The position numbers and the translations under genes were made by a program. From positions 1 to 28,566 of the IMG/VR virus record IMGVR_UViG_3300032753_000132: a stretch of 28,566 nt of DNA; one strand, given 5' to 3'. Below, one piece after another: positions 2,440 to 28,566 of the stretch (positions are counted from its first letter, which is position 1; the number at the start of each line of letters is the position of its first letter). The notes under the pieces are model-generated. The model worked only from the letters and a program-made list of their open reading frames with translations, was not told the origin of the DNA and did no database searches. The stretch comes from a virus.

Positions 2440-2591
2440 TGCACGCCCTCCTCCTTCGCCTGAAGAACTTGTTTTTCCCTTCGCCCATTTCACCTGTTCA
2501 GCCCGAGGAGGATCCGAATCGACCCGCATGGAACCGTGAAGCCTGGAAGCAGGCTGGTCGCCGCGGGTATCGCCCGACCGGGGGGCGCTAG
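2439..2591 (+). CDS. 50-residue basic protein of unknown function
   Basis: This short gene exactly fills the space between its neighbours. Its ATG overlaps the upstream TGA by one base (TGATG), and its TAG shares the G of the next gene's GTG start (TAGTG). The 50-residue product has a short hydrophobic start (LLLRLKNLFF), a proline-rich middle and a basic, aromatic C-terminal helix (AWNREAWKQAGRRGYRPTG). No family is recognised. The junctions on both sides are the main argument that it is real, because coupling of the initiator gene would otherwise be broken. Confidence 0.6.
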   Translation: MHALLLRLKNLFFPSPISPVQPEEDPNRPAWNREAWKQAGRRGYRPTGGR

Positions 2592-3547
2592 TGGCCCGGA
2601 TCCGTTCTACCAAGCCAGAGTTCTGGTCCCATCCTGTGATTGGGCGTCTCGACGACTATGTCAAGACCATGGCTCTTGCCCTGTTGAATCTCGCGGATGA
2701 CGAGGGCTATTTCCTGGCCGATCCCATTTTGGTCCGCAATTTCGCACGACCATTCGACGAGGATTCGACGATCACTCGACGAGCCCTCGAAGCCCTCTCG
2801 ATTGCCGAGTGGATTGCCCTCTCTGAACACCCCTCCCATGGCCCCATCGGGCTGATCCTCAATTTCAGGAAGCATCAGAAGATCGACCGTCCTACGCCCA
2901 GTAAAATCAGCATTTACTTTGATTCGTCGATTCCTCGACGAGCCCTCGACGAGCCCTCGTCTCTGGAAGGGAAGGGAAGGGAAGGGAAGGGAACAACTAC
3001 TTCGTCGCCTTGCGGCGACGCGGCGTCTGCTCCGTCTCCCCGGTCAAAGGCCCCTCGGGGACGATCCTTTGGTCTGGTCATGTCGTCCATGCCGGAAGAA
3101 GTCCGCGGGGAGTTCCTTCGTGCATGGGAGGGGTATCCCACCGAGGCGTGGAACTTCGAGACGAAGACCATGGCTCCCCGTCGCCGGAACCAGGAGGGAA
3201 CCGCCAAGCGCTACATGGAGATCCTGGAGCACAACCGGATTCGCACCCCCTGGGGCGATCGGCTCACGGCAAAGGATCTGACCGACCTCACGCTGTTCTT
3301 CGTGGCGGCCCGCAAGCGTCACGCCATTGCCAAGTCGGAGCACCTGAATGTTCCGGGTATCGAGAATTTCTTCAGTTCCATCGATGGGCCCAAGTCGAAC
3401 CCGTGGCAGAACGCCGCGAATGCCTGGCTGGCCTCTCTGGCTTCCGTGAAGGTCGGGGTTGGTGCCCCTCCCCCTTCTCCCGCGGCGCCTGCCCCCCAAT
3501 CCGGCCCGTCGCGGCCCGCCCACGCCCCGGAGGCGTCCCATGTCTGA
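2591..3547 (+). CDS. Phage replication initiator (lambda O-like/DnaD-like)
   Basis: The protein begins MARIRSTKPEFW, the signature opening of phage replication initiators with an N-terminal winged helix. The helix domain runs to about residue 100 and ends in NFRKHQKIDRPTPSK. A Ser/Gly/Lys linker follows (about 105-160), then a C-terminal domain (about 160-300) that probably contacts the helicase. Such proteins bind repeats at the origin and bring in DnaB, whose gene follows directly. GTG is chosen as start because it overlaps the upstream TAG and the protein then begins at the conserved motif. The DNA between about 2750 and 2993 carries phased repeats, an AT-rich stretch and a G-run array, so the gene probably contains its own origin. 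Confidence 0.85.
   Translation: MARIRSTKPEFWSHPVIGRLDDYVKTMALALLNLADDEGYFLADPILVRNFARPFDEDSTITRRALEALSIAEWIALSEHPSHGPIGLILNFRKHQKIDRPTPSKISIYFDSSIPRRALDEPSSLEGKGREGKGTTTSSPCGDAASAPSPRSKAPRGRSFGLVMSSMPEEVRGEFLRAWEGYPTEAWNFETKTMAPRRRNQEGTAKRYMEILEHNRIRTPWGDRLTAKDLTDLTLFFVAARKRHAIAKSEHLNVPGIENFFSSIDGPKSNPWQNAANAWLASLASVKVGVGAPPPSPAAPAPQSGPSRPAHAPEASHV
2754..2960 (+). repeat. Two sets of 11-bp-phased TCGACGA repeats (candidate iterons)
   Basis: TCGACGA occurs at 2754, 2765 and 2776. The inverted form TCGTCGA occurs at 2924, followed by TCGACGA at 2935 and 2946, and a partial copy at 2957. Every step within a set is exactly 11 bp. A further lone copy lies at 2649. Because 11 is not a multiple of three, the copies fall in all three reading frames, so a repeated protein motif cannot explain them. 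A longer unit, TCGACGAGCCCTCG, occurs three times (2776, 2935, 2946). The repeats force CGA-CGA arginine codons, which look unusual here. Repeats one helical turn apart inside an initiator gene are typical of initiator binding sites. Confidence 0.7.
2965..2993 (+). repeat. (GGGAA)5 array, G-quadruplex-capable
   Basis: Five GGG runs, at 2969, 2974, 2979, 2984 and 2989, are each separated by AA. This meets the usual rule for an intramolecular G-quadruplex with two-base loops on the plus strand. In the protein it encodes the linker EGKGREGKG, a low-complexity segment that can tolerate such a sequence. It lies immediately downstream of the second phased repeat set, so it may belong to the origin or act as a replication or transcription pause site. 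The function is inference. Confidence 0.7.
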
Positions 3548-4916
3548 TTGGCTCCCCGAGCGTCTGCCCGAGGATATCGATTGCGAGAGGTCGTTTCTCG
3601 CCACCTGCTGCGCCCCAGGGGCGGGCTATGTCGCCTCCGAGGCTGTGGTGGGGCTCTCGGCTGATGATTTCGTTCACCCATCCCACAAGGCCGTGTTCTC
3701 TGCCTTGGTGGCCCTCATTGCCCGCAACGAGGAGGTGAACAGCCTGACCCTCAAGGTCGAGTTGGAAGCTGCTGACGCCCTTGGCCGTGTGGGAGGCTAT
3801 CCCGGACTGGTGGAATTGCTGGCCGGCGAGGATGTGGAGCGTCCCCATGTGCTTGCCAATGTGATCTTGGAAAAGTCACGCCTGCGGAAGCTTGTTCACA
3901 TGGGCGCTGGCCTCGTCCGCATGGCTGTGGAGGGTCAGGAATCCTCTGGGCTGGTGGAATCCTTCAGCGCTTCGCTCCTCACCATGGCCCAGCCCACTGG
4001 CTCCAAGGGCCTTATGCGTCTCGGGGAATTTGGGGAAACCGCCATGCGGCACGCCTTGGACGTTGCCGAGGGACGCCAGACCCCTGGCACCCCTACCGGG
4101 TTCTCCCGCCTGGACTGGATGCTCGGTGGTGGGTTCAAGCCTCAGCAGATGGTCATCCTGGCTGCCCGGCCCAGTGTCGGGAAGTCCACCCTCCTTGCCC
4201 AGTGGCTGCGCCGGATCTCAGAGCATTCCGCCACCGCGGCCCTGTTCGGCCTGGAAATGGCCGGCGACGAGGTCTGGATCCGTGCCGCAGCCTCGGAGTC
4301 CCGTGTGTCTGGGGGCAAGATCTCCTCCGGCACCTTGGATGCCTCCGAATGGGCGCGACTTCGTGACGCCCAGGGGGCCCTCGCCGCGCTCCCTTTCCTT
4401 GTCTGTGACCGTGCCACCATCACCGTCCCCGAGATCCGCTCCATGTCAGAGCGTGCCTCGGTGAAGTTCGGGAAGCTTGGGCTCGTGGCGGTCGACTACC
4501 TCCAGTTGCTCTCGAGCCCTCGCGGCTCCCAGGCTGCCAAGCAGAACGAGTCTGTTCGTGTGGGTGAGATCAGCCGTGGTTTCAAGTTGATGGCCAAGGA
4601 TCTCGACGTTCCTGCCCTGGTGCTCTCCCAGTTGAACCGCGAGGTGGAGCACCGTTCTGGGGGCCGTCCTCAGCTTTCAGACCTCCGCGATTCTGGCGCT
4701 CTCGAGCAGGATGCCGACGTTGTCTTGTTTCTTCACCGGAGGGGCGAGGCCGGGGCTCCAGATGCGGCCTATGAACTCATCGTCGCCAAGAACCGCAACG
4801 GGCCCACGGGGATCATCCCCATCACGGCCGACCTCGAGCACTACCGCTTCCTCGAAATGTCCCGCATGACCAACCCTCCTTCCTACTCCTCCGACCCCTC
4901 TGGGTCGGACCTCTAA
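3540..4916 (+). CDS. dnaB: Replicative DNA helicase DnaB
   Basis: DnaB is the hexameric ATP-driven helicase that unwinds DNA ahead of the fork. The 458-residue protein has the usual two parts. The N-terminal helical domain (about 1-110) includes GGYPGLVELL. The RecA-like motor has Walker A ARPSVGKST at about 209-217, Walker B LVAVDYLQLL at about 315-324, and the later SQLNREVEHR and LSDLRDSGALEQDADVVLFL motifs with the arginine-finger region. The length matches the family. I chose the ATG at 3540, which overlaps the initiator's stop and gives the normal N-terminus; the frame stays open upstream but that stretch is proline/arginine-rich and not DnaB-like. No separate helicase loader gene is seen. 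Confidence 0.95.
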   Translation: MSDWLPERLPEDIDCERSFLATCCAPGAGYVASEAVVGLSADDFVHPSHKAVFSALVALIARNEEVNSLTLKVELEAADALGRVGGYPGLVELLAGEDVERPHVLANVILEKSRLRKLVHMGAGLVRMAVEGQESSGLVESFSASLLTMAQPTGSKGLMRLGEFGETAMRHALDVAEGRQTPGTPTGFSRLDWMLGGGFKPQQMVILAARPSVGKSTLLAQWLRRISEHSATAALFGLEMAGDEVWIRAAASESRVSGGKISSGTLDASEWARLRDAQGALAALPFLVCDRATITVPEIRSMSERASVKFGKLGLVAVDYLQLLSSPRGSQAAKQNESVRVGEISRGFKLMAKDLDVPALVLSQLNREVEHRSGGRPQLSDLRDSGALEQDADVVLFLHRRGEAGAPDAAYELIVAKNRNGPTGIIPITADLEHYRFLEMSRMTNPPSYSSDPSGSDL

Positions 4917-5902: not shown

Positions 5903-6434
5903 GGGGCAGGGGGTTGCCCATGTCGGCCTGCATGACAAGTTGGTCGTCTGTTTTCATTGCGGGGCGCGGGACGTCGTGATTCATGACGACCAGCGCCATG
6001 GGATCGCCATCAATTCCCCCGCCTGGGCTGGCTTTGTGGCGCATGGGATCGCCTTTGAGAAGGCCCATGCGAAGTGCAAGGAGACGCCGGAAAGCCCGTC
6101 CATTCGTCTCGAGGCCACTCCCGAGGAGTGGGAGCGGGGCCTGTTTGTTGGCTCCTCCTCGGGGACCATCTTCACCGTCTGCATGGGGCGCCGGCCAATG
6201 GGGTTCGCTGCCGATCGCCTTGGGGCCGCTCCCTTGGATCCGGCCGACTTCAACCGCTGCCATCGCCTTCTCAGGGTCCAGCCGGAATGGCGCTCTCGCC
6301 TGGGCGAAGTGGCCTTGGCCTATCCCACTTGGAAGGGGCTCGTGGAGCACTGGGACGAGTTGACCGCGATGCTCGAGGCCAAGAATCCCGCGATGTATGA
6401 CCGGATGCAGGTGCTGCTGGAAAGGGGGCGGTGA
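5895..6434 (+). CDS. Unknown phage protein with N-terminal zinc-finger-like motif
   Basis: The ATG at 5895 overlaps the previous stop and gives 179 residues; the frame is open four codons further up. The first 60 residues carry CFHCG and a later H-x3-C (KAHAKC), spaced like a small zinc-binding unit. The rest (about 75-179) has the pattern GLFVGSSSGTIF ... LDPADFNRCHRLL ... PEWRSRL ... YPTWKGLVEHWDEL. I recall this arrangement from many uncharacterised phage proteins, but I know of no assigned function. It lies between the RdgC-like gene and the DUF5131 gene with one-base overlaps. Confidence 0.72.
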   Translation: MARGQGVAHVGLHDKLVVCFHCGARDVVIHDDQRHGIAINSPAWAGFVAHGIAFEKAHAKCKETPESPSIRLEATPEEWERGLFVGSSSGTIFTVCMGRRPMGFAADRLGAAPLDPADFNRCHRLLRVQPEWRSRLGEVALAYPTWKGLVEHWDELTAMLEAKNPAMYDRMQVLLERGR

Positions 6435-7435
6435 TGGCCGAAAACTCCAGAATCGAGTGGACCCACCACACCGTAAATTTTTGGCACGGTTGCTCGAAGG
6501 TGAGCCCTGGATGTGCGAATTGCTACGCCGAGACCCTGGACGCCCGGTTCCACCCCCTCCGTGCCGATCGCCCCGGCCGTGCTCGGCACTGGGGCAATGC
6601 CCCGCGCATGCTCCGTGTCGAGGCTGGCCGCCGGGAGGCCCTGAAGTATGAGCGCCGTGCGGTGAAGGAGGGCGTCCGGTTTCGGGTGTTCACCCAGTCT
6701 ATGGGCGACTTCTTCGAGGACCGGGGGGACCTGGATGTCGCACGCCTCGAGGCGCTGGATGTGATCCGGCAGACCCCGCACCTTGACTGGCTGGTTCTCA
6801 CCAAGCGGCCGGAGAATGTGCTCCCACTCCTGGCCCGGGCCATCAATGCTACCGATGGTGACGAGTCCTTGGGTGAATTACATGATTGGCTCCATGCCTG
6901 GGGTTCTGGGTTCCCCCCCGCCAACGTCTGGCTCGGGACCTCTGTGGAGGATCAGGAGCGGGCCGACCTTCGGATCCCCGCGCTCCTGCAGGTGCCCGCG
7001 GCCGTTCGGTTCCTGTCCTGTGAGCCACTGCTTGGGCCCGTGGACCTGACCGGCCTTGGCCTTCACAAGGGCTGGTGCCCTACCCATGACTTTCCCGGCG
7101 GGTTCTGCCATGGGTCATGTCCCGATGATCGGCGTCTCGACTGGGTAATCTGCGGCGGCGAGTCCGGCCCCCACGCCAGGCCCATGCTCCCTGAGTATCC
7201 CCGTGGCCTCCGCGACCAATGTGCGGCCGCACGGGTGCCCTTCTTCTTCAAGCAGTGGGGCGAGTTCTGCTGCCCCGATCAGCTTCCCCCCGAGGCATTC
7301 GTCTCCTGGGACGCCCAGGAGAATGCGGCTGGCAATCCCGACCTCGAGCGCCCCCTGCGCTTCGGCAAGGCCCGCTCCGGCCGTCTCTTGGATGAAGTGG
7401 TGCACAGCGCCTTCCCGGAGGTGGCCCATGCCTGA
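6434..7435 (+). CDS. DUF5131 / phage Gp37-Gp68 family protein
   Basis: The opening residues IEWTHHTVNFWHGC...VSPGCANCYAE are the hallmark of the Gp37/Gp68 (DUF5131) family, found in many phages and mobile elements. Three cysteines, C20, C27 and C30 (C-x6-C-x2-C), look like a metal or Fe-S site. Further family features are a conserved F-T-Q-S-M-G-D-F-F segment, WLVLTKRPENV, VWLGTSVEDQ, RFLSCEPLLGPV and WVICGGESGPHARPM, ending with PFFFKQWGE. The family's biochemical role is not established; a radical-SAM-like or metal-dependent function is a guess from the cysteines. The length of 333 residues is normal to slightly long. The ATG overlaps the previous TGA (TGATG). Confidence 0.9.
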   Translation: MAENSRIEWTHHTVNFWHGCSKVSPGCANCYAETLDARFHPLRADRPGRARHWGNAPRMLRVEAGRREALKYERRAVKEGVRFRVFTQSMGDFFEDRGDLDVARLEALDVIRQTPHLDWLVLTKRPENVLPLLARAINATDGDESLGELHDWLHAWGSGFPPANVWLGTSVEDQERADLRIPALLQVPAAVRFLSCEPLLGPVDLTGLGLHKGWCPTHDFPGGFCHGSCPDDRRLDWVICGGESGPHARPMLPEYPRGLRDQCAAARVPFFFKQWGEFCCPDQLPPEAFVSWDAQENAAGNPDLERPLRFGKARSGRLLDEVVHSAFPEVAHA

Positions 7436-9238: not shown

Positions 9239-9622
9239 TTGGATATCGATCAATCCATTTACGTGTGCCTGAATCGCCTGGTTGACGTCATCGAGGACGT
9301 CACTGGGCAGCGTCCCGAGCATGCGGCCCTGTTGGTTGCCCTGTCTCGGCGTGCGGCTGCGACCAAGACCAAACGCTACATCAGCCTCTCTCGCGTGCAG
9401 GTGGTTTCCATCGGCGCCTCCCACGCGAACCGGACCCTGGCCAATCGTGTGGCCCGCTGGACCCTCCGTGCCATGGGCCCCGACACTCCGCTCCTCTACA
9501 GTTATCCCCTTTACCGCGAGATGGCGTCCGTCCGGGGCCTCAAGCCCTGGTCCTACCGCCAGTATCGCCGCCACGCCTGGGGCTACGAGTCCAAGGCACG
9601 AGGTCCCGAAGTTGCCTGCTAA
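9239..9622 (+). CDS. Unknown protein with probable TTG start
   Basis: The frame from 9239 encodes 127 residues with normal codon use. I choose the TTG at 9239 because GAGGA (9229-9233) sits five bases upstream; the next candidate is GTG at 9263. The protein starts MDIDQSIYVCLNRLVDVIED, has a basic middle (SRRAAATKTKRYISL), then a helical stretch and an aromatic, basic end (KPWSYRQYRRHAWGYES). A DNA- or RNA-binding role is possible from the charge, but no family is recognised. It overlaps the methyltransferase start by 11 bases. The 46 bases before it hold only the ribosome-binding region. Confidence 0.62.
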   Translation: MDIDQSIYVCLNRLVDVIEDVTGQRPEHAALLVALSRRAAATKTKRYISLSRVQVVSIGASHANRTLANRVARWTLRAMGPDTPLLYSYPLYREMASVRGLKPWSYRQYRRHAWGYESKARGPEVAC

Positions 9623-11039
9623 AGCGCACCCCAAGAAGAAGCCGGCCGCTCCTCCCGCGGCCCCGCCCAAGAAGCCGGCCGCTGCTGGCCCACCTCCTGC
9701 TGCGCCTTCAGGATCCGACCTCCGGGTTCCCGAGGTGGTCCAGATGAAGGTTCGGGACCTCCGCCCATGGGCTGGAAATCCTCGGGAGCATTCTGCGGAG
9801 CAGCTTCGGATCATTCAGAAGTCCATCGCTCATCATGGGCTGGTCGCCCTTCCTGTGGTCCAGAAGGGAACCAACCGCCTCCTCGCCGGCCATGGTCGCC
9901 TCCAGGCGCTCCTCGATGCTGGGCACGGCGACACCGTCATCCCGGTCATCGTGGCCGACCTGGACGACCGCGATGCCACCGCCTACACCGTGGTTGATAA
10001 CCGGACTGTGGATCTCAGTTCGTGGTCGCTGACCTCCCTGCAGGAGATCCTGGTTGGGCTCGACAATGGCGCCTTCGATATCGAGGCGACCGGCTTCACG
10101 CTGTCTGCCCTTGAGGATCTGTTCGGAACCATCCCGGGTGGCGGGGAACCCCCCAAGGTGGACCCCGACACCGTCCCCGAGCCCCCCGCGGTTCCCGAGA
10201 CGGTGCTTGGCGAAGTCATTCTCATGGGCCCCCACAAGCTTATCTGTGGGGACAGCACCGATCCTTTCGTCTGGCGCACGCTGCTCGGCGGGGAGGAGGG
10301 CGCCCTGGTCCTCACGGATCCGCCCTATGGGATGGACTACTCCTCCAACGCCAAGGGCACAGCTGGCGGGAAGATCAAGAACGACGCCCTGGACCGGGCC
10401 GCCCTCGAGAACCTCCTCACCCGGGCCTTCGCCTGTGTCCGGGCCGCCTCCATGAAGCAGGCCGCCTGGTATGTCTGGCACTCCTACCACCGGCAGCGCG
10501 AGTTCCAGAACGCGCTCGAGGAGGTGGGCCTCCGGGTGAAGACCCAGATTATCTGGGTGAAGCCCTCCGCGGGCCTGGGCATGGACGAGTTCCGCCGGCG
10601 CCACGAGAACGCCTTCCTGGCCGAGCAGGAGGCCGGGGCGGTCCCGGTCGACGTCGTGGGGCGGGGCCTTGTGATCGAGGACCATTCCCAGGGCATCTAC
10701 GCCACCGATTTCGAGGCGAAGCCCACTTGGAAGGGTGGCCGGACCCAGACCACCGTCTGGGAGCAGGGCCGGGAGACGGCTTCGAACGTCCTTCACCCGA
10801 CCACCAAGCCTGTTGCTCTCCTGGACCGGGCTATCAAGCTCTCGAGCAACCCTGGCGACCTCGTGTTGGATGCATTCGGGGGCTCTGGCTCGACGCTCAT
10901 CGCTTGCCACCTGGCCAGGCGCCGGGCGGCCTTAGTAGAGTTGGACCCTAAATTTTGTGACGTCTGCGCTTTGCGCTGGAAGATGATCACCGGCATGGAC
11001 GCCATTCGGGTGAAGCCTGGAGAGGCTTCGCATGGGTAA
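9612..11039 (+). CDS. ParB-like domain fused to beta-class DNA methyltransferase
   Basis: An N-terminal Lys/Pro/Ala-rich stretch (1-35) leads into a ParB/Srx-like domain (about 38-150) with LRPWAGNPREHS and RLLAGHGRLQALLDAG. From about 195 to 460 there is an amino-methyltransferase: the catalytic DPPY at 236-239 precedes the AdoMet-binding DAFGGSGST at 420-428, the motif order of the beta class (as in CcrM). Such fusions are frequent in phages and methylate adenine N6 or cytosine N4, probably to escape host restriction. No cognate restriction enzyme is visible. I choose the TTG at 9612, which has GAGG eight bases upstream and overlaps the previous stop; the open frame above it does not look coding. 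Confidence 0.9.
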   Translation: MPAKAHPKKKPAAPPAAPPKKPAAAGPPPAAPSGSDLRVPEVVQMKVRDLRPWAGNPREHSAEQLRIIQKSIAHHGLVALPVVQKGTNRLLAGHGRLQALLDAGHGDTVIPVIVADLDDRDATAYTVVDNRTVDLSSWSLTSLQEILVGLDNGAFDIEATGFTLSALEDLFGTIPGGGEPPKVDPDTVPEPPAVPETVLGEVILMGPHKLICGDSTDPFVWRTLLGGEEGALVLTDPPYGMDYSSNAKGTAGGKIKNDALDRAALENLLTRAFACVRAASMKQAAWYVWHSYHRQREFQNALEEVGLRVKTQIIWVKPSAGLGMDEFRRRHENAFLAEQEAGAVPVDVVGRGLVIEDHSQGIYATDFEAKPTWKGGRTQTTVWEQGRETASNVLHPTTKPVALLDRAIKLSSNPGDLVLDAFGGSGSTLIACHLARRRAALVELDPKFCDVCALRWKMITGMDAIRVKPGEASHG

Positions 11040-26423: not shown

Positions 26424-26602
26424 GGCTTCTCCTTGGCGAGTGCCTCGCGCAGCAGGCGCAATTCCTTGACCAGTTGGGCCATGGTGGGCGTGCCGATGAA
26501 GTATTGTGTGCCCTCGAACAAGGCGCGGATCTCTGGGTCGCAGAGGCTGAGTTCATCGGGGGCCGGTTGGCATGTCGCTGAGACTATGACGGGTTTAGGC
26601 AT
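26420..26602 (-). CDS. 60-residue protein of unknown function
   Basis: The ATG at 26602 is preceded by AGGAG with four bases between, better than the upstream alternative ATT/ATG region of the open frame (to 26623). The product is MPKPVIVSATCQPAPDE, then LSLCDPEIRALFEGTQYF and a closing helix TMAQLVKELRLLREALAKE. The helix could pair with the coiled coil of the next gene, which overlaps by four bases. No family is recognised. Confidence 0.6.
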   Translation of the reverse strand: MPKPVIVSATCQPAPDELSLCDPEIRALFEGTQYFIGTPTMAQLVKELRLLREALAKEKP

Positions 26603-26619
26603 GGGGCTCCTGGACAAGA

Positions 26620-26847
26620 TCACTTGCGGTTAATTTGAAGGAGAACATTCGCACCAGCCCAGCAGCCACAGCCCATCAATATCCACGGCTCAACCGGGTC
26701 TTCTGGATGCAGGTCTATCTCTACATCAACCTCATCGGTGGGATCGTCCAAGTAGAAAAACACTTCCACCTTCCCGTCAAAGTGGTGGGTGCCTCGGCTT
26801 TCCTTCTCGATGTATTGGAGTTTTTCGATGAAGTCTTTGAGCAGCAT
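26620..26847 (-). CDS. 75-residue acidic protein of unknown function
   Basis: I choose the ATG at 26847, where AGAGG lies eight bases upstream; the open frame continues further but that part overlaps the next gene and looks non-coding. The protein has a helix (MLLKDFIEKLQYIEKES), a strand (KVEVFFYLD), a very acidic middle (DDPTDEVDVEIDLHPEDPVE) and a hydrophobic end with GCGCW. The order helix, strand, acidic strand, strand resembles small phage proteins of unknown function. No motif is assigned. Confidence 0.55.
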   Translation of the reverse strand: MLLKDFIEKLQYIEKESRGTHHFDGKVEVFFYLDDPTDEVDVEIDLHPEDPVEPWILMGCGCWAGANVLLQINRK

Positions 26848-26870
26848 GTGGTGTGCCTCTGGACATACGC

Positions 26871-27131
26871 CTACTTGGCGCGGTTGAATCGGTCTAGGGT
26901 GTTTTGCGCGGCCTGGGCGGTGTTGGTGGCGTCCTGCTCGGAGGTGCCATAGACCTGATGGGCGTCCGTGTGGGTGCTGGCGCACCATGCGAGGTTTACC
27001 AGTTCCTGGAATAGGTTGCTTGGGATTTCGATTCGGCCAGGACGAGGTGGACGATTCCCCCACCGTGCCCCGACCTTGAACCCAAGAAAGAGGGCCAGAC
27101 AGACCAGGAGGTAAACAAGCGAGAAGTTCAT
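26871..27131 (-). CDS. 86-residue protein with N-terminal membrane anchor
   Basis: The ATG at 27131 has AGGAG six bases upstream. The first 25 residues form a membrane helix (FSLVYLLVCLALFLGFKVGA), followed by basic residues (RWGNRPPRPGR), so the C-terminal part probably lies in the cytoplasm. The remainder is a mostly helical domain with polar, alanine-rich sequence (FQELVNLAWCASTHTDAHQVY; TAQAAQNTLDRF). No lipobox or signal peptidase site is evident. The function is unknown. Confidence 0.62.
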   Translation of the reverse strand: MNFSLVYLLVCLALFLGFKVGARWGNRPPRPGRIEIPSNLFQELVNLAWCASTHTDAHQVYGTSEQDATNTAQAAQNTLDRFNRAK

Positions 27132-27150
27132 GTCAGACTCCTGGACAGAT

Positions 27151-28068
27151 TCAGTTTTTGATGGTGCGTTGGATCTCAACCTCGCCAACCTCGTCAGCGT
27201 TCACAAGGCAAGGATGCAACCATTGGACCTTGGGGATTTTTGGCCCAGTTCCCGTCTTGCTACCTTTCCCGGTCCAGTAGAGATGCCAGTGCCCAGCGCG
27301 AAGGTGAGGTTTGGTATCGCCATGTGTAATTGACGTGGCGGCTCCGGTAGATCGGGTCTTGCGATAACGGTTCAGCGCTGAAACGAACTTCCCACCAATG
27401 ATCCTTCGGGTGGCTGGCTGCTTCATGAAGTCGGGTTTGTTTCGATTCTTCTTCCCGCCACCAATCGGGGGCACATCGACATCTTCATAGTCATTGGTAG
27501 CCGACAGAAACAGGGCCACCTTCACGACTGTCTCCAACATCTCAAACATCTTCCCTTCTGGCGTATAAGATCCGTCACCACGGAATGGCCCGATCTGAAA
27601 TTCCGTTTTACGAATGGAGTCTGCGACGGAAAGACCCGGAATAAGTTTTACGGGAAGCGACCCGGTCGGCATGAACACGGTGAGCACCCGGAACCCGTCA
27701 AAATGATCCATGGCCAGGAAGTAGAAGAACCCCTTTTTTGTTTCTTGGTCGAATGCCCGAAGAAAGATCCTTGGGTGAGGGATCACGATAAGCTCGGTTG
27801 GAATATCCTCCGGGTCGATCTTGGATGCTTGTAGCTCCTTGTACAAATCAATTGGCACCTCATAGGCCACCCGGATGTTCCCAAGTGTTGATGCCCCTGC
27901 CAGCATCCGGTGGTTAGACCTTTCCATTTGGTCGGTCATCGTGGAAGTCACCAGGACGCTTCTCCGGATTGCTTCGTCAGGCGGGACATTGCGCCCCAGC
28001 CCAGCGGCAGCTTCCATGATCCGATTTAGATGGTCAATGGCGCTCACAGTGCCTCCGATCTTGGACAT
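27151..28068 (-). CDS. AcrVA2-family protein (anti-CRISPR-like)
   Basis: AcrVA2 of Moraxella is an anti-CRISPR of about 322 residues that lowers Cas12a by triggering loss of its mRNA; relatives are spread in phages and plasmids whose hosts often lack Cas12a. This 305-residue protein resembles it along its length: PTELIVIPHPRIFL near 90, GFFYFLAMDHFDGF, a GLSVADSI segment like GQSVAEVL, ALFLSATNDYEDVDVPPI, and the marked C-terminal PHLRAGHWHLYWTGKG...VQWLHPCLVN (about 254-293), against PHIRRGHWHGYWQGTG in AcrVA2. The comparison is from memory, not a search. The ATG at 28068 overlaps the upstream stop (TGATG). GC content is lower than in the rightward genes. Confidence 0.72.
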   Translation of the reverse strand: MSKIGGTVSAIDHLNRIMEAAAGLGRNVPPDEAIRRSVLVTSTMTDQMERSNHRMLAGASTLGNIRVAYEVPIDLYKELQASKIDPEDIPTELIVIPHPRIFLRAFDQETKKGFFYFLAMDHFDGFRVLTVFMPTGSLPVKLIPGLSVADSIRKTEFQIGPFRGDGSYTPEGKMFEMLETVVKVALFLSATNDYEDVDVPPIGGGKKNRNKPDFMKQPATRRIIGGKFVSALNRYRKTRSTGAATSITHGDTKPHLRAGHWHLYWTGKGSKTGTGPKIPKVQWLHPCLVNADEVGEVEIQRTIKN

Positions 28069-28442
28069 CAACGGCAGAAGTTACCGTCGATGAGGTTGTG
28101 GGCATTCGCCCAAGGAAGGTTGATATTGGAGTGTTCGCCAATGTCCTCGCGGAAGTGGCGGGCGATGGCTTCAGCCAGTTTGTCCGCCCACTCCTCGGCG
28201 TGGTCACGCTCCTCCGCCAGCCCACGCTCTGACCGTTCCAGATCCTTAACGCGGAGGGCGAGTCGCCGGATTCCATCGGCTAGGCTTTCGTCCTCAGCGC
28301 ATTGGACGGTTGCCCTGAGTTCTTCATACTTCTGGTGTTCGCGCTCGTTATAGCCCACGCCGAAGATTTGTTCCCCGGCTTTCAGGTAGTCAGCCATCAG
28401 GTCGCCTAGTCGTTTCGGTTTTCGCTTGAATGGGTTCCACAC
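28068..28442 (-). CDS. Coiled-coil protein of unknown function
   Basis: The open frame reaches 28538, but I choose GTG at 28442: AAGGAA lies seven bases upstream, and the 124-residue product then starts with the natural-looking MWNPFKRKPKRLGDL. The middle (about 45-100) is rich in Glu, Arg and Leu with heptad-like spacing (KYEELRATVQCAEDE; ALRVKDLERSERGLAEERDH), which suggests a coiled coil. The C-terminal part has NLPWANAHNLI. It is coupled to the AcrVA2-like gene by TGATG, so the two may be made together. No family is assigned. Confidence 0.62.
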   Translation of the reverse strand: MWNPFKRKPKRLGDLMADYLKAGEQIFGVGYNEREHQKYEELRATVQCAEDESLADGIRRLALRVKDLERSERGLAEERDHAEEWADKLAEAIARHFREDIGEHSNINLPWANAHNLIDGNFCR

Positions 28443-28470
28443 GGCGAGGTTCCTTATCTTGGACAAGAGC

Positions 28471-28566
28471 CTATTCGGCGGGGTTGATGAAGCCACAGGC
28501 AAGACACGGCTGCTCAAGGCGTTCCTTGAGTGTCGCAATCTGGGCGCGGAGGTTGTCGTTCTCCTC
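28471..28566 (-). CDS. C-terminal end of a gene cut by the window edge
   Basis: Reading leftward from the window end, a frame stays open for 31 codons and ends at TAG (28471-28473). It encodes a heptad-like helix (ENDNLRAQIATLKERLEQ) and a cysteine pair (PCLACGF). The pattern continues the style of the coiled-coil gene downstream. The start lies outside the window. At this size the call is tentative; the family is unknown. Confidence 0.5.
   Translation of the reverse strand, partial: EENDNLRAQIATLKERLEQPCLACGFINPAE

Follow-up and report, generated by a model that had tools for sequence, protein, structure and literature searches.

Analysis of a linear virus record of 28,566 bases (the window, that is, the whole stretch of DNA analysed) indicated that a replication origin probably lies within its replication initiator gene, at positions 2754–2993, where iterons would be bound by the initiator, an adjacent array of GGA-containing units opened and the helicase loaded. 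Elements at 2649 and 3003–3020 are possible accessories. This model is supported by an excess of the motifs over shuffled sequences, conservation of synonymous sites, a fixed register between iterons and array, recurrence across a family of phages, and persistence of the layout outside the gene; a silent GC skew, an array that is not A+T-rich and the lack of a GGA chain in some relatives count against it. Origin status of the segment is strongly supported by these comparisons, which would place the start of replication there. The preliminary description of this DNA, which had proposed an intragenic origin selected as DNA, is thus upheld in its core; a G-quadruplex and an A+T-rich element, which it had also put forward, do not hold in the form that it gave them, and the GC skew, which it had named as a check, lends no support.

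The initiator gene (2591–3547, plus strand) has a GTG start and encodes 318 residues. Its product matches two PHROG families annotated as replication initiation proteins, 1408 (E 8e-16, residues 1–149) and 16167 (E 4.5e-15, approximately 150 N-terminal residues). No O-like PHROG was among its matches, profile searches gave no Pfam match (RepA_N domain included), no AAA+ initiator was recognised in the gene, and a PDB search by sequence returned no useful match. An AlphaFold2 model of residues 1–110 (2591–2920, plus strand; mean pLDDT 94.2) predicts a winged-helix DNA-binding domain with helices at 22–34, 45–52 and 60–71 and a hairpin at 75–89. The top PDB folds found with this model by Foldseek are the RepA_N plasmid initiators 4pt7, 4pql and 5kbj, which are weak matches (E 7e-3, TM approximately 0.5), and some of its viral structure matches carry the annotation replisome organizer. 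The gene is preceded by a RecT gene and overlaps at its end with a gene for a DnaB-like replicative helicase (3540–4916, plus strand; Pfam DnaB_C, E 5.5e-71, and DnaB, E 2.4e-9; PHROG 19, E 7e-84). Farther along, the window carries a DUF5131 family gene (6431–7435; Pfam E 1.5e-74; PHROG 2045, function unknown) and a ParB-like domain fused to a DNA methyltransferase (9282–11039; PHROG 498, E 1.6e-108). The GC content falls from approximately 0.65 to approximately 0.54 over 26500–28500, possibly reflecting later acquisition.

The iteron TCGACGA (or its complement TCGTCGA) occurs nine times in the 28.6 kb, where 3.5 copies are expected, and nine or more copies arose in none of 100 shuffles. Seven of the nine lie inside the initiator gene, the other two being at 79 and 18677. 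As the preliminary description had reported, three copies on the plus strand start at 2754, 2765 and 2776 (first set, 2754–2782), and a second set comprises an inverted copy (2924–2930, minus strand) followed by plus-strand copies at 2935–2941 and 2946–2952, all in 11 bp steps and with all three reading frames occupied by the copies in the gene. To these we add a partial fourth site of the second set, TCGTCTC (2957–2963, plus strand), absent from that description; the four members of the second set begin at −41, −30, −19 and −8 relative to the start of the array. An outlying TCGACGA is found at 2649–2655 (plus strand), and the equivalent position of the gene is occupied in one relative (L112). 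The clustering that had been suspected was borne out by 2000 synonymous-codon shuffles of the gene: the seven copies compare with a shuffled mean of 1.5 and maximum of 6, and the four pairs exactly 11 bp apart with a maximum of 2. From the winged-helix topology of the model, helix 60–71 is likely to be the recognition helix, and its codons (2768–2803, plus strand) overlap the first-set iterons at 2765 and 2776. The same base pairs would then serve as a binding site and encode its likely reader, and any association of the helix residues with the iteron centre is confounded because the first set itself encodes them.

Directly after the second set lies the array GGAA(GGGAA)5 (2965–2993, plus strand; purines on the coding strand), found where it had been described, which amounts to 5.8 perfect copies of a 5-mer and is proposed to be the strand-opening and helicase-loading element. 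Tandem Repeats Finder detected one weak repeat in the window outside the initiator gene, leaving the iterons and the array as its only notable tandem repeats. More than half of the array bases are G, and it is not A+T-rich, which is the composition of classical opening regions. The stretch before the second set (2900–2924) is indeed 76% A+T, as the preliminary description had noted, but its counterpart among the relatives described below is at most a dip of about four GC points confined to −50 to −41; its role is doubtful, and it is considered minor. Just 3′ of the array, a hairpin absent from the earlier description (CGTCGCC-TTGC-GGCGACG, 3003–3020, plus strand; 7 bp stem, −9 kcal/mol) is a possible accessory origin element; stems of at least 6 bp follow the array in 35% of relatives, against 12% of synonymous shuffles and 6% elsewhere in the genes. 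The skew minimum expected at the site was not seen: cumulative GC skew declines over most of the 28.6 kb to a minimum at about 25 kb, which is a weak test on a linear fragment.

The first relatives collected had been partly seeded on the array peptide EGKGREGK and were excluded from all frequencies; relatives were sought again in viral contigs and bacterial genomes using the N-terminal domain alone, giving a non-redundant set of 115 genes with pairwise identity below 70%. Of these 115 initiators, 101 contain at least four GGA in a chain with steps of 4–9 nt and 92 contain at least five, the mean chain being 6.4, whereas synonymous shuffles average 2.8. Chains of five or more are found in only six of the 1668 remaining ORFs at these loci, and in two of the six cases the locus has its own element outside the gene set (L046 and L192). 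The steps are predominantly 5 nt (331), followed by 7 (136), 6 (99) and 8 nt (27), with units that include GGAAA, GGAAG, GGAACAG, GGATCAG and GGAACAGG. Arrays are approximately 37 nt long irrespective of their step (36.8, 40.6, 37.7 and 35.2 nt at dominant steps of 5, 6, 7 and 8, respectively), and the coding strand of the 101 arrays is purine-rich (T 3%, C 4%). On a tree of 101 rows and 107 columns, parsimony gave at least 27 changes in unit length and at least 17 in iteron class, counts that carry the uncertainty of a tree with many unresolved forks. The other 14 relatives have no GGA chain, and some of them carry other short repeats; no clear GGA array was seen in the cultured phages JBD44, LESphi2 and Mx8. 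In Redi and Brujita, phages that infect M. smegmatis mc2 155, the arrays have 8-nt units. The closest relative, L084 (61–63% identical in the domain), has a different iteron and a 7-nt array. At five loci (L231, L237, L247, L252 and L270), GGA is replaced by 7-nt arrays, for example (GACCTAC)n or (GGACCTA)n, downstream of the iterons.

The spacing of the iterons is equally widespread. Across the family, self-similarity in the 70 bp upstream of the array peaks at lags of 11, 22 and 33 (z 18, 17 and 6) and in the part of the gene that holds the first set at lags of 11 and 22 (z 17.9 and 11), and the lag-11 periodicity is absent between the two sets. When relatives are aligned on the array, T recurs at −8, −19, −30 and −41 and A at −13, −24 and −35, position −8 being T in 75% and −7 being C in 63%. 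This register is strong whichever of the two common reading frames the array starts in, and weaker in the third, which is represented by eight genes only. Many relatives have iterons of the form TCNNNGA, with central triplets that vary between phages (GAC, ACT, CAA, AAT and CCC); the two sets of one phage share their centre in 31 of 39 genes, compared to 11.8 expected. Other phages carry other motifs, for example the TACC class. The preliminary description had judged that the array and the one-turn phasing appear distinctive; in the sequences compared, they are not peculiar to this phage, and the combination is instead a hallmark of a large family, its register-locked layout recurring in about 100 distantly related phages.

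Four independent lines of sequence evidence show iterons and array to be selected as DNA and not as protein, which extends what had been argued from the use of three reading frames. In a group of nine genes, identical residues are encoded by identical codons at fractions of 0.70 in the first set, 0.87 in the second set and 0.72 in the array, whereas the remainder of the domain reaches 0.37 and the C-terminal part 0.34, so the predicted conservation of synonymous sites was found. In the TCACTGA class of iterons, the frame in which TGA would end translation contains the variant TCACGGA in 18 cases and TCACTGA in none, compared to 7 and 46, respectively, in the remaining frames (p 1.5e-11). That TGA is missing from the stop frame follows necessarily from translation, but the reading frame does not require the G variant to take its place. 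Unit lengths are mixed in 71 of the 101 arrays, a pattern not expected of simple slippage. Finally, copies exist outside the gene: at six loci (L291, L313, L352, L365, L375 and L431) the initiator gene stops 42–165 bp 5′ of the array, which is kept, and in most of them 11-bp iterons precede it. At L352, L365 and L431 no frame takes the array into a recognised protein; at L291, L313 and L375 an open frame continues to the next gene, but the ATG is 3′ of the array. The small proteins encoded downstream at these loci (L291, L313, L352, L375 and L431) form one family, and the initiators are apparently split in two around the proposed origin. At two further loci, L295 and L383, a GGGAA array follows repeats of GTGACGCGTGTTT approximately 5 kb downstream of the initiator gene, in probably non-coding DNA; their origin may have moved away from that gene.

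A reverse search of viral contigs for (GGGAA)4 found, among the matches listed, at least 119 places, at least 87 of which lie within ORFs bearing the N-terminal domain; no array among these matches had a domain ORF only on the opposite strand. A further 21 array ORFs among the matches listed were scanned, and at least 11 of these match replication or primosomal families. DUF1376 was found in L344, L354 and L378, with L301 borderline, Phage_rep_org_N matched L357 weakly, and O-like C-termini occur in L324 and others. In these other initiators, repeats at 11, 12 or 21 bp stand directly 5′ of the array. The array therefore goes with origins of several kinds and not with one protein. We tentatively propose, at a little under even chances, that in the GGA array tailed phages have a general, so far undescribed origin element, retained by unrelated initiators (the window family, DUF1376/YdaU-like, Phage_rep_org_N and those with lambda O-like C-termini) beside their own iterons and read as a single strand during opening or helicase loading, as a phage counterpart of the DnaA-trio. 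A search for (GGGAACA)3 was less specific, with many matches in unrelated genes, among them those for tail fibre, portal and endolysin. In ydaU of the Rac prophage of E. coli K-12 (L515, 2620–3477), TGTTCAAACA-like repeats at 11–12 or 33 bp are followed by AAAGATACAGATAAAGAT and a C-run/G-run, the same layout except that a GAT array replaces GGA, which makes this a lead in a laboratory strain. An active origin, oriJ, has been reported for Rac (PMC3945230).

A mechanism is proposed where the winged-helix domain of the initiator binds the 7-bp iterons, one per helical turn and all from the same side of the helix. Between the end of the second set and the approximately 37-bp purine tract with its GGA every 5–8 nt the distance is fixed; assembly of the initiator, by bending and underwinding the DNA, could open the tract. 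Lambda serves as the model for this step, and lambda and plasmid pSK41 as precedents for an origin within the initiator gene. The assembly would then hold one strand while the helicase encoded next door is loaded at the opened array. Flexible steps of 5–8 nt within one array would fit reading of a single strand better than of a rigid duplex. Replication genes also neighbour the initiator in the relatives, including a DnaC-like loader in Mx8 and LESphi2, which may serve instead in such members.

Other explanations of the array were considered. One is a flexible charged protein linker (GKGRE, EQGTGNR) grown by replication slippage, with the DNA pattern as a by-product: the array codes for a hydrophilic stretch linking two domains, and slippage generates short tandem repeats. 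However, steps of 5, 7 and 8 nt are not multiples of three, the length is constant, and 71 of the 101 arrays mix unit steps, which simple slippage would not give. The conserved synonymous codons, the fixed register of the iterons in both common frames and the arrays kept outside the initiator frame at L352, L365 and L431 also speak against a linker, and this explanation, already largely refuted, is extremely improbable. The array could alternatively form a G-quadruplex, as the preliminary description had suggested, or provide an R-loop or RNA-primer site through transcription of the G-rich coding strand. All 101 arrays contain at least four GG runs, the array was never found with an initiator ORF solely on the opposite strand among the reverse-search matches listed, and activation of the lambda origin requires transcription (PMC5043065). 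Against a quadruplex, only 28 of 101 arrays contain the three-tier motif (four GGG runs), and the base preceding GGA is A in 287 cases and G in 302, tracking the GC content of the gene (r 0.42). The quadruplex was accordingly rejected as a conserved property of the array; strand orientation, for its part, cannot tell an R-loop from other strand-specific roles, and taken together these alternatives appear unlikely.

The iterons could also be operator or partition sites, serving autoregulation or as a centromere. Phage centromeres can be short direct-repeat arrays, such as parS of RedRock (PMC7157519), and the window has the ParB-like/methyltransferase gene at 9282–11039. Nevertheless, the repeats are located within and beyond the gene rather than at its promoter, the layout goes with the initiator domain in phages that infect many hosts, and replication initiators of unrelated types have similar arrays behind their repeats, all of which makes this role very improbable compared with that of an origin.

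Although origins inside initiator genes are textbook knowledge, we provisionally regard as new the GGA array, its constant length, the iteron register and the sharing of the array among unrelated initiators, none of which we found described in open-access papers, the literature covered by the search; nor was an initiator–DNA complex or a mapped origin found for any member. To our knowledge, very few sequenced phages have a known origin. If the model is correct, the origin could be read directly from the initiator gene in phages of many bacterial phyla, and an A+T-rich tract would be shown not to be indispensable for opening an origin, which raises the question of what reads GGA every 5–8 nt over approximately 37 nt.

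Among known systems, the origins of mycobacteriophages with RepA have no repeats reported near repA (PMC7157519). The lambda origin resembles that of the window in lying inside the initiator gene, O, and in having repeats followed by a strand-asymmetric region: O bound to the iterons opens approximately 40 bp in which one strand consists almost entirely of purines (PMC5043065), and O proteins bind A/T-rich single strands (PMC7466680). In contrast to the 7-bp sites at 11-bp steps described here, lambda iterons are 19-bp near-perfect inverted repeats that bind O dimers, its opening region is A+T-rich rather than a GGA-punctuated tract, and the window protein stands outside the O family, with matches to other PHROG families and none in Pfam. 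RepA_N plasmid initiators also have a winged-helix N-terminal domain, as the model predicts for the window protein, and one of them binds boxes in the middle of its gene; in pSK41 the origin is in the centre of rep, and the central protein segment or linker that it encodes is dispensable (PMC5703833). The window protein differs in having no Pfam sequence match and only the weak fold match given above, and the RepA_N review (PMC5703833) describes no GGA array. PHROG 1408 and 16167 are the protein families that the window protein matches, and DNA layout is not part of their description. In some DUF1376 (YdaU-like) and Phage_rep_org_N initiators, (GGGAA)n likewise follows immediately on repeats spaced at 12 or 21 bp; their N-terminal domain and iteron spacing are different. 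The DnaA-trio of bacterial oriC is likewise a short-unit repeat on one strand beside double-stranded initiator sites; its units are of 3 nt and are read by DnaA, whereas the GGA units of the phage arrays measure 5–8 nt.
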